Assembly (NCBI GenBank): GCA_949282385.1
Contig: CASDOP010000001.1
Coordinates: forward strand, 248,001 to 312,000
Source of the DNA: an uncultured Clostridia bacterium
GTDB taxonomy: Bacteria; Bacillota; Clostridia; Christensenellales; Borkfalkiaceae
Length of the DNA: 64,000 bases
Reading direction: 5' to 3'
The notes under the pieces were generated by a model. The model searched no databases and was not told the DNA's origin. It worked only from the letters and a program-made list of their open reading frames with translations. The position numbers and the translations under genes were made by a program. Shown piece by piece: positions 578-24,097 of the stretch; position 1 is the stretch's first letter; every line of letters starts with the position of its first letter.

Positions 578-660
578 TGGTGCGGATAACAGGAGTTGAA
601 CCTGCACGGTCGCCCACAGGAACCTGAAACCTGCGCGTCTGCCAATTCCGCCATATCCGC
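578..660 (-). tRNA. tRNA-Leu (anticodon CAG), CCA encoded
   Basis: The minus strand gives acceptor stem GCGGATA paired with TATCCGC, the leucine D-arm sequence GGCGGAATTGGCAGACGCGC, anticodon loop TTCAGGT with anticodon CAG, a short variable arm as in class II tRNAs, and a T-arm with TTCAACT. The 3' CCA is encoded at 578-580. The gene has its own promoter (673-701) and terminator (544-576). One anticodon-stem pair next to the loop looks like a T-T mismatch. Confidence 0.92.
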
Positions 661-4098: not shown

Positions 4099-5159
4099 TG
4101 ATATTCCTCCATAATTTCAACGAGTGCGTCGATCAACGCCTTCATTTCCCCGTCCGTACCTATGGTTATTCTTATGTAGTCTTTAATTCGCTCGTCGGAA
4201 AAATGCCTGACGAGTACACCTTTCTCCTTGAGAAGCTCATAAAGTTTGCCGCCGTCGACTTTATCCGTCTTGGCAAGCACAAAATTTGCTGAGGACGGAA
4301 CAACTTCAAAATTCATATCCTTGAGCCCACGACAGAGTTCCTCGCGAGTTTTTTTGATTTTGCTTACCGTCAGTAAAAAATATTCGTCGTCTTTGATGGC
4401 GTTCTTTGCAAGAAGCATCGAAAGCGTGTTGACATTATAGGGATGGAAGGAATATTTGACTTTATTCAGGTCGCAAATAAGCTCTTTATCCGCAACGATA
4501 AACCCTATTCTTCCGCCCGCGAGCGAACGCGATTTTGAAAATGTGTTAACCGCCACAATATTTTTATATCTTTTAATTAAAGGAATGACGTTGCAGTTTT
4601 CACCGAAATCGACATAAGCCTGATCGATAATGACGATATTTTCGCGGTTGTTTATAAGAATTTGTTCTATCTGACTTAAAGAAAGCGCTTTACCCGTCTG
4701 TGCATTGGGGTTTGCGAGAACGACCGTCTTTTTCGCGGCGAAATATTTTGTCTCGTCGACCGAAAAATCTTCATTAAGCGCGATATGCTCTGCGGGGCAA
4801 TCATACATATTAGCAAAGACGTCGTAAAAGCCGTAAGTTACGTCGGGGTAACATACTCCGCATGAACCGTATGCCTGAAAACAGAACGCGAGCGCCTCGT
4901 CCGAACCGTTGGTTATCAGCACGTTCTCTTCGCCAACGCCGTAGTAATCCGCAACAACCTTAACGAGCGGTTTGCACTCGGGGTCGGAATAACGGTTAAG
5001 CGATTTTACGACGCTTTCGGATATGGCATTGACTGCCTTTTGCGCAGTATAATAGGGATTTTCGTTTGTATTGAGTTTCACATACCTTTTGTCCCTCGGC
5101 TGTTCGCCCGGAACATAGGGCGCTATGGCATTGATTTTTGCCGTTGCAAATTTACTCAT
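4095..5159 (-). CDS. hisC: Histidinol-phosphate aminotransferase
   Basis: A fold type I PLP enzyme of 354 residues. The N-terminal VKLNTNENPYY binds substrate phosphate. The PLP lysine is in NTFSKSRSLAGGRIGF, with the Asp in IIDQAYVDF and the Asn in LANPNAQTG. It converts imidazole-acetol phosphate to histidinol phosphate. It overlaps hisD by four bases. Confidence 0.94.
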   Translation of the reverse strand: MSKFATAKINAIAPYVPGEQPRDKRYVKLNTNENPYYTAQKAVNAISESVVKSLNRYSDPECKPLVKVVADYYGVGEENVLITNGSDEALAFCFQAYGSCGVCYPDVTYGFYDVFANMYDCPAEHIALNEDFSVDETKYFAAKKTVVLANPNAQTGKALSLSQIEQILINNRENIVIIDQAYVDFGENCNVIPLIKRYKNIVAVNTFSKSRSLAGGRIGFIVADKELICDLNKVKYSFHPYNVNTLSMLLAKNAIKDDEYFLLTVSKIKKTREELCRGLKDMNFEVVPSSANFVLAKTDKVDGGKLYELLKEKGVLVRHFSDERIKDYIRITIGTDGEMKALIDALVEIMEEYQ

Positions 5160-20471: not shown

Positions 20472-20516
20472 AAACAGCCGCGCAGGGTGAAAAGCCCTGC
20501 GCGGCTGTTTTTATTT
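20472..20516. terminator. Strong terminator, probably bidirectional
   Basis: A 16-bp stem (20472-20487 with 20495-20510) and a 7-base loop, followed on the plus strand by TTTTTATTTTA. It ends the DnaD-like transcript and also lies at the end of the minus-strand reductase gene. Confidence 0.9.
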
Positions 20517-21163
20517 TACCATATGAACTGCGCCTTTGCGATTTCTCCGTTGTCGATTAAAATATCCTGCGCGGTCATGGACTTGTTTATAACCGTAACA
20601 AAATATATCCACTCGGCAATCTCTTCGACTTCCGCCCATTTGGGCAGAAGCGTGAGCGACATTATTTTGTCCCATTTCTCTTTGTCGTTTATAACGCGCG
20701 CGTTGAGTTCCGTCAACACTCCGCCGGGCGAAAGACTATTTGCCGTCGCACCGAATGCGGCAATTCTCAAAGCAACGTTCTTCATATAGGATATAACGCC
20801 GCCCTTGCTCGCCGCGTATTCGGGAAACTCGCTTCCGTTATGCGCGCTCGCCGAGGCGATGAATAAAACGCTCTTTATACCGTCGCAAAAAGCGTACTTT
20901 TCCGTTACTCTTATCGAACCTTTAAGATTAATATCTATATCTCTTCCCGTATCCTGCACGCCCGCATTATTTATAAGGATATTTACGCCGTCTATATCGG
21001 GCAACACTCCGCAGGATATATCTGTGATAAAATGAGAATATCTGTTGTTTTCAATCGTGCTTCCGAGCAAGTCAAGCCCGACGACCTCGTGTCCCGCGGA
21101 CAAAAATTTTAACGCCGCCGCTCTGCCTATTCCGCTGCTCGTTCCGCTGATTAAAACCTTCAT
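20516..21163 (-). CDS. Short-chain dehydrogenase/reductase
   Basis: A 215-residue classical SDR: NAD(P)-binding TSSGIGRAA (about 8-16), NNAG motif in ILINNAGVQDT, catalytic Ser in ASASAHNG, and YxxxK in YAASKGG. The substrate is unknown. The ATG at 21163 follows AAGGAG by 8 bases and overlaps the stop of the YhhQ-family gene, so both share the riboswitch-bearing transcript. Confidence 0.88.
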   Translation of the reverse strand: MKVLISGTSSGIGRAAALKFLSAGHEVVGLDLLGSTIENNRYSHFITDISCGVLPDIDGVNILINNAGVQDTGRDIDINLKGSIRVTEKYAFCDGIKSVLFIASASAHNGSEFPEYAASKGGVISYMKNVALRIAAFGATANSLSPGGVLTELNARVINDKEKWDKIMSLTLLPKWAEVEEIAEWIYFVTVINKSMTAQDILIDNGEIAKAQFIW

Positions 21164-21915
21164 CAAACGCTCTCCTTGCAAAGTTTTAAATACTCAAAAT
21201 ATTCTTCGCCGACCTTATTCTTCTTCCATCTCGCGCAAGCAGAATAACCGAAGTAGGAAAAAATCACTTCGCAGAGAAGCTCTGCAACCATGCCCGTGAG
21301 CGAACACATAACGCACTGCAGGAATGTCCAGCCGAAGAAAATATGGCTGACGATGAGCGCGAAAAGAAGATTATCGACAAACTGTCCCACCGCTGTGGAT
21401 ACATATGACCTTAAAAAATATGCCACTCTGCCGTCGGGGTTCTTTCTGAAAGCTCTGCCTATTCCCCAGTTGGAAAAGTTGTTTACTACCGAAGAAACTA
21501 TAAATGCCGTGGTGCTTCCCAAAACGACATACCATGTGCCGCCGAAAGTATTATCTAGAGCGACATTTATCGCATCGCCGTTTTCAACGAAAGATTCGCC
21601 CCACATTCCGGGGATTATGCTGCCTATAAACAGAAGCAGACAAAACAACAGATTGATTATAATTGCAAATATAGAAAGCTCGGTCGCCGCTTTCGGACCG
21701 AAATGCTTTGTTACCATATCCATTGTCAAAAAGGCAAACCACGAAACGATAATGCCGCAGTCGAGCGCAAGCCAATCGACGGGCAAGGATATGCTCTTGT
21801 TTGCGAGCAGGTTCATTTCAAAAACAGACATTACGAATATTACCGTAACGAGCGCAGGTACGCTTTTAAGCAACAATACGAACTGATGAAATTCACTTTT
21901 GATTTTCTGACCCAT
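21163..21915 (-). CDS. YhhQ/VUT-family queuosine-precursor transporter
   Basis: An integral membrane protein of 250 residues with about six hydrophobic segments, of the VUT/COG1738 (YhhQ) family. YhhQ of E. coli takes up preQ0/preQ1 for queuosine synthesis. Family-like segments are GPKAATELSIFAIIINL and RSYVSTAVGQFVDNLLFALI. The ATG at 21915 follows AAAAGGAG. A preQ1-like aptamer and terminator precede it, which supports a role in queuosine-precursor uptake. Confidence 0.85.
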   Translation of the reverse strand: MGQKIKSEFHQFVLLLKSVPALVTVIFVMSVFEMNLLANKSISLPVDWLALDCGIIVSWFAFLTMDMVTKHFGPKAATELSIFAIIINLLFCLLLFIGSIIPGMWGESFVENGDAINVALDNTFGGTWYVVLGSTTAFIVSSVVNNFSNWGIGRAFRKNPDGRVAYFLRSYVSTAVGQFVDNLLFALIVSHIFFGWTFLQCVMCSLTGMVAELLCEVIFSYFGYSACARWKKNKVGEEYFEYLKLCKESV

Positions 21916-21951: not shown

Positions 21952-21981
21952 AAATAAAAAATGGCGCAATTATTGCGCCAT
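21952..21981 (-). terminator. Riboswitch terminator upstream of the transporter gene
   Basis: ATGGCGCAAT (21961-21970) faces ATTGCGCCAT (21972-21981), and the minus-strand RNA continues with six U's. It lies between the aptamer and the SD, about 40 bases before the ATG, so it can shut off the reading of both downstream genes. Confidence 0.8.
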
Positions 21982-21989
21982 CATTTTTT

Positions 21990-22029
21990 CCATAGTTTTG
22001 TTTACAGACAGGATGGTCACGAACTGTCT
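21990..22029 (-). promoter_or_regulatory. Candidate preQ1-I riboswitch aptamer
   Basis: The minus-strand RNA has a 6-bp P1 (AGACAG at 22029-22024 with CTGTCT at 22011-22006), a 12-base loop that starts UUC, and an A-rich tail ending CUAUGG. CCAU in the loop can pair with AUGG of the tail (21993-21990) to give the P2 pseudoknot. The stem, loop length and A-rich tail match preQ1 class I, but some conserved loop bases differ. The loop CCAUC could alternatively pair with GAUGG of the terminator stem. Confidence 0.6.
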
Positions 22030-22046
22030 TTGATTAAGTTATTGCA

Positions 22047-22076
22047 ATTCTAACACCGAAAATAAGATGTTGTCAA
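22047..22076 (-). promoter_or_regulatory. Promoter of the riboswitch / YhhQ-family operon
   Basis: TTGACA (22076-22071), an 18-base spacer, and TAGAAT (22052-22047) with an extended TGT just upstream of the -10. The start of transcription would fall about 10 bases before the aptamer. Confidence 0.75.

Positions 22077-24021: not shown

Positions 24022-24097
<76 letters not shown>

Follow-up and report, generated by a model that had tools for sequence, protein, structure and literature searches.

A preQ1-I type I riboswitch below the Rfam threshold very probably precedes a yhhQ-dehydrogenase operon in uncultured Clostridia

Type I riboswitches of preQ1 class I are defined by a UU atop the 5' strand of P1, a UC before its 3' strand and a conserved C in the tail (PMC11625349, PMC8752633). 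In the type I structure from Carnobacterium, C8, A12 and U32 form a ceiling and G9 meets A33, while a first preQ1 is contacted by G5, U6, C17 and A30 and a second one by U7, C31 and U16 (PMC8752633). The type I examples named in a recent review regulate translation, transcription termination being documented there for type II (PMC11625349). The element described here was located by sequence inspection on the minus strand, at 22029-21956 of the window (the whole stretch of 64,000 nucleotides that was analysed). It resembles the Carnobacterium antarcticus type I RNA (RF00522; PMC8752633, PMC11625349) in its 12-base loop starting with UUC, in the UU atop the 5' strand of P1, the UC before the 3' strand and the CUA of the tail, and in keeping the contact bases of both ligand sites. 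Unlike that RNA, it scores 27.5 bits (E 8.6e-4; permissive scan of a 301-base stretch) against the RF00522 (PreQ1) model, whose gathering threshold is 39, it has an invariant CC(A) before the UC of the loop, and it is followed by a terminator and not by a masked ribosome site. With the queC riboswitch of Bacillus subtilis, of type II, it would share transcription termination as output and a pseudoknot that opposes an antiterminator (PMC11625349), but type II RNAs bind one ligand and carry AC in place of UC ahead of the 3' strand of P1. We consider it highly likely that an operon of yhhQ and a short-chain dehydrogenase (SDR) gene, for the salvage of queuosine precursors, is controlled at this locus by a preQ1 class I riboswitch of type I that acts by terminating transcription.

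The features of the locus are collected in Table 1. Inspection of the minus strand bore out the TTGACA promoter, the 6-bp P1, the 12-base loop and the A-rich tail given in an initial annotation of this DNA, as well as its strong terminator and the YhhQ-family gene downstream. Pairs of TTGACA-like and TATAAT-like boxes are found at the same position upstream of the element in the loci fetched from relatives.

Table 1. Features of the yhhQ leader and operon in window coordinates.
Feature	Position	Strand	Basis or remark
Sigma-70-type promoter	22047..22076	-	TTGACA 22076-22071, TAGAAT 22052-22047, spacer of 18 bases; from sequence
PreQ1-I type I aptamer (very probable)	21990..22029	-	RF00522 27.5 bits; 61 distinct elements, P1 covariation
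P1, 6 bp, AGACAG/CUGUCU	22029-22024 / 22011-22006	-	Sequence
Aptamer loop, 12 bases, UUCGUGACCAUC	22023-22012	-	Sequence
CCAUC in loop, putative antiterminator strand	22012..22016	-	Nascent-length folding; base mapping on PMC8752633
A-rich tail, AAAACUAUGGAAAA		-	
Aptamer tail CUA + UGG (CUAUGG)	21995-21993 + 21992-21990	-	Sequence
GAUGG, at the foot of the terminator 5' arm; putative pairing with CCAUC as antiterminator	21978..21982	-	39/47 leaders
Segment GAUGGCGCAA-UAA-UUGCGCCAU, with six U	21982-21956	-	
Intrinsic terminator	21956..21981	-	9-bp stem 21981-21973/21969-21961; -13.0 kcal/mol
Six U of the terminator	21961-21956	-	
Ribosome site AGGAG	21925-21921	-	Upstream of yhhQ ATG 21915
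YhhQ/QPTR (PF02592, COG1738-type) transporter gene, 250 aa	21163..21915	-	Pfam Vut_1, E 1.7e-22
SDR gene	20516..21163	-	PF00106, E 3.5e-17; ATG 21163

RF00522 was the top match of all Rfam models on both strands of the 301-base stretch under permissive settings. At the gathering threshold the element is unreported in the whole window, where only two tRNA genes (24025-24097 and 581-660, minus strand) pass, and by Rfam's own rule a score below gathering is no member call. Scans of L002-L030 gave 24-29 bits against RF00522 before several yhhQ genes without ever reaching 39, and leaders of queT scored 24-27 bits; none of the scanned relatives, queT leaders included, reached the gathering threshold, the best of all scoring 28.7. 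Because the relatives score alike, the low score is, judged from these sequences, a property of the clade and not decay in one genome. All scanned leaders of the clade escape the Rfam cut-off, and the extent of preQ1 regulation in gut Clostridia is therefore probably underestimated. The element is very probably a preQ1-I riboswitch of a previously known kind that lies below the Rfam threshold.

Close homologues of yhhQ were present in 31 of the 150 genomes searched, and the element precedes yhhQ in 14 of 30 fetched loci (L001-L003, L005-L013, L016, L017), many of the remaining ones having a different preQ1-like leader. A search of genome contigs with a profile built from the SDR alignment was also carried out, and its best 80 loci (most of their titles name uncultured Clostridia, a few name something else) include 74 in which a yhhQ homologue adjoins the SDR gene, upstream of it in all but L104. 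Within the stretch searched, the element was found in 40 of these 74 loci, and L063 has it elsewhere in the locus; by eye, on the printed leaders, the second leader type was assigned to 29 and neither type was seen in four.

A covariance model, R1, was trained on 14 yhhQ leaders (the window element and 13 relatives) with P1 as its sole helix. In 150 related genomes it rendered 35 matches at E<=1e-4, and all 35 lie before queuosine genes: 16 before yhhQ-SDR, 11 before queT, three before a QueL homologue and five before queD-queE. Strong scores for the 14 training leaders follow from the way the model was built, whereas leaders of queT, queL and queD lay outside the training set; most relatives are near kin, so that the counts are not independent. 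The yhhQ-SDR and queT sets were assigned by comparing coordinates with protein matches, and for the queT set and the other eight the loci themselves were retrieved and inspected as well; the frame downstream was seen in every one except L134, placed by coordinates, and L128, whose contig ends just inside queD. In one of the 16 yhhQ-SDR cases (G018) the match is on a separate contig, and the contig of the gene itself begins just upstream of the gene. A twelfth queT leader, at E 0.0024, was fetched with the eleven. In the three QueL cases (L122-L124) the element precedes a radical-SAM gene behind which a QPTR transporter is encoded; the product of the radical-SAM gene matches PDB 6p78 (Queuine lyase) at E 2e-55. 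That a model trained on yhhQ leaders alone also finds queT, the queuine-lyase homologue and queD-queE supports the identity as a preQ1-type sensor that had been proposed, and a single RNA element before four queuosine gene sets provides a useful guide to queuosine-linked genes. In the elements before queD-queE-folE (L125:2423-2475 and L126:1059-1111, minus strand; L127:1300-1352, L128:995-1047 and L129:853-905, plus strand) the loop has 15 bases (UUCGUUUGCGCCAUC) and the tail reads CCA, not CUA.

Covariation was analysed in 61 distinct elements, gathered with a search pattern in which bases 6-9, 12, 16, 17, 31 and 33 were fixed and most of P1 had to be present; invariance at the fixed bases is thus partly by construction, and pairing in P1, though not the type of its pairs, was favoured. 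Exchanges on both sides were observed at four of the six P1 pairs, each above all 2000 shuffles. The 4-bp pseudoknot that the initial annotation had drawn between CCAU of the loop and AUGG of the tail fared differently: the two strands are complementary at this locus, but while A occupies base 15 in 60 of the 61 elements, base 34 is divided among U (30), C (16), G (12) and A (three), the A-U pair 15-34 forming in 30 of 61 against a shuffled expectation of 29.8, and C13-G36 and C14-G35 are nearly invariant and hence uninformative on this pairing either way. CCAU/AUGG was therefore rejected as a functional P2, and the invariant bases appear to fit instead the published type I pseudoknot, with its C8-A12-U32 ceiling and G9-A33 contact; the main set has A-U at pair 12-32, partly by construction. 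The reading of the initial annotation stands as to the element: a covariance-model match exists, although below threshold, and relatives strongly conserve the element before yhhQ, but the pseudoknot pairing as drawn is not what they conserve. In the queD-queE elements of L125-L129 pair 12-32 reads G-C if the longer loop is aligned from its 3' end, an alignment choice of ours, and an additional hairpin-like insert is seen in the A-rich aptamer loop L3 in L011, L046, L122, L123, L124, L134 and L135.

The loop being of equal length, its bases map one-to-one onto the type I structure, and the contact and pocket bases G5, U6, U7, C8, G9, A12, U16, C17, C18, A28-A30, C31, U32 and A33 are all present. 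On this mapping the aptamer is read as belonging to the two-ligand type I subgroup of preQ1 class I, and binding of two ligands would be expected by analogy with the published type I cases. The initial annotation had also suggested a variant with altered ligand choice. Since all seven bases reported to contact preQ1 (G5, U6, U7, U16, C17, A30 and C31; PMC8752633) are unchanged at equal loop length, the type I reading gives no cause for such a change, and altered specificity was discarded. That an RNA with this fold would respond here to preQ0, queuine or a guanine-like base, and not to preQ1, seems to us unlikely. The transporter family has been reported to import preQ0 and, in some bacteria, queuine (PMC5372724, PMC11570991), and loop bases 10, 11 and 13-15 differ from the RF00522 consensus or vary against it, but these positions are not among the named contacts. 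Moreover, the element of this clade also precedes queD-queE and queT, the latter described as a preQ1 transporter (PMC11625349), and, with no queF detected, preQ0 would be useless to this genome unless another enzyme reduces it.

GAUGG follows the tail in 39 of 47 leaders, where dinucleotide shuffles would predict 1.5; among the eight that lack it, L008 and L044 carry the wobble form GGGUGG, and the rest (e.g. L011, L063 and L101) are partly or wholly unexplained. When the RNA of the window was folded at growing nascent lengths, P1 was the predicted fold at 30-51 nt. At 54-66 nt it gave way to an antiterminator in which GUG-A-CCAUC pairs with GAUGGCGC, with -11.7 kcal/mol at 57-60 nt, and from 69 nt on P1 was predicted together with the terminator (-18.1 kcal/mol). 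Pairing of the loop with downstream sequence at some nascent length was found in 45 of 47 leaders, a count that is only moderately informative, as it is 26 with shuffled arms. The CCAUC-GAUGG antiterminator, which had been put forward as a ready switch, is thus supported by the leader sequences and their predicted folds, and the loop CCAUC ends in C17, which is predicted to read the ligand. Since the antiterminator is less stable at equilibrium than P1 plus terminator, the choice would have to be kinetic, during transcription. When preQ1 is scarce, (GUG)ACCAUC of the loop would pair with the emerging GAUGG(CGC) and hold the 5' arm of the terminator, so that the polymerase would read on and the importer would be made. 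When it is plentiful, one or two preQ1 molecules (two in the characterised type I RNAs) would lock P1 and the pseudoknot, CCAUC would be unavailable, the terminator would fold and the operon would be off. The identity of preQ1 as the ligand, the direction of regulation (bound is off) and the substrate of the transporter are what we infer from these data.

It might also be the case that control is translational, the pseudoknot hiding the ribosome site and the terminator-like hairpin being incidental, as translation is what type I riboswitches control in the characterised cases (PMC11625349) and several queT relatives (L130, L138) fuse the GG of the tail to the ribosome site without a terminator. 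This is very unlikely for yhhQ, whose AGGAG lies 65 bases downstream of the aptamer tail, behind a 9-bp hairpin with six U, and a GC hairpin with a U run is kept at the same place in relatives. An ordinary attenuator or a chance hairpin that binds no ligand, to which the shortness of the element and its sub-threshold score could point, is hardly credible given that every strong R1 match precedes queuosine genes, of unrelated families, and that P1 covaries.

The second leader type occurs upstream of yhhQ in L014, L018-L023, L026, L027, L029 and many of L058-L110. Its loop is UUCCUUGCCUAAC, its CCUUG faces CAAGG of the ribosome site and it is without a terminator; from its sequence it seems to switch the translation of this same gene pair. 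Both the AC motif and the longer loop favour type II. An assignment to type III, reported almost only from proteobacteria (PMC10622847), was withdrawn after comparison with the Escherichia coli yhhQ leader, whose loop (UUCCCUCAC) is shorter. In L104, tandem preQ1-like pseudoknot leaders (4650-4790; CUUUUUG/CAAAAAG and CUUUG/CAAAG) sit between the SDR gene and a yhhQ paralogue downstream.

The product of yhhQ matches PF02592 with 80.9 bits, above the cut-off of 27.2, and TIGR00697 with 37.4 bits, under the equivalog cut-off of 50.95, and therefore represents a divergent YhhQ/QPTR subgroup. The start codon of the SDR gene, conserved in relatives, touches the yhhQ stop, with an alternative TTG at 21181. 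SDR matches at E<=1e-20 were found in exactly the same 31 of 150 genomes as close yhhQ, side by side with it. QueT (ECF S component), which in other families of the order has the same upstream RNA element and the same role as a queuosine-precursor importer, belongs to an unrelated transporter family and is present in 95 of the 150 genomes but in only two of the 31 with yhhQ-SDR (Fisher p 1.3e-13), the other 29 being without it; within the genus, the figures are 0 of 20 yhhQ-SDR genomes versus 54 of 70 others (p 1.4e-10), p-values that ignore kinship and overstate the evidence. The exclusion pattern recurs across several families of the order. QueL was found in none of the 31 yhhQ-SDR genomes. 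Because the yhhQ-SDR pair almost never occurs with queT and never with queL, it looks, from this distribution, like a third module for the salvage of queuosine precursors beside QueT and QPTR-QueL. The last of these resembles it in placing a transporter and one enzyme under the same RNA element (L122-L124); in contrast, the enzyme there is a radical-SAM protein and here an SDR, and the QPTR subgroup differs (TIGR00697 167 bits there versus 37).

The initial annotation had proposed a check for que genes elsewhere in the genome, and tgt, queA and queH were found. Genes for queC, queT and queL above cut-off were not found in the assembly, which is about 96% complete, so that single absences are not proof. 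As for queF, the sole match of the QueF model reaches 36 bits against a cut-off of 86.9 and covers model positions 26-97 alone; we presume it to be a related T-fold protein such as FolE. In a published survey, tgt and queA with only queG or queH mark an auxotroph for queuine or preQ1 (PMC6593275). On its gene content the source genome looks like a preQ1 auxotroph, and an importer under preQ1 control suits the need of such an organism.

The SDR that accompanies the importer is a more interesting lead than the riboswitch itself: a family without an assigned role travels with a single subgroup of transporters and stands where queT is missing, which makes it a candidate queuosine-salvage enzyme. 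The glycine-rich nucleotide motif is retained, as are the S...YxxxK residues (alignment A2), and its structure is predicted with a mean pLDDT of 90; a structure search rendered generic classical SDRs alone, at 18-27% identity, and was uninformative on the substrate. Our search of the literature for a link between an SDR and queuosine found nothing relevant. Replacement of QueF by a thioimide route is disfavoured, as alignment A2 is without an invariant cysteine. The simplest guess, by analogy with QPTR-QueL, is that the SDR acts on what the transporter brings in; a role in a different step, or with a precursor not yet known, is equally conceivable. If a cyclopentene hydroxyl of queuine were oxidised, a beta-amino ketone able to lose preQ1 would be expected. 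It may be, though this is rather doubtful, that in this third module the transporter imports queuine, the SDR oxidises a hydroxyl of the cyclopentenediol and preQ1 is released by elimination and closes the riboswitch, the SDR being then a non-radical counterpart of QueL. In Evtepia gabavorous (L075) the SDR gene follows another transporter of the QPTR family (TIGR00697, 96 bits), and five other loci among the best 80 have the SDR gene without an adjoining transporter. In L103 (4016-5568) and L109 (4010-5562), an SDR gene of the same family without a transporter is followed by genes that resemble, by eye, those of ADP-ribosylglycohydrolases.
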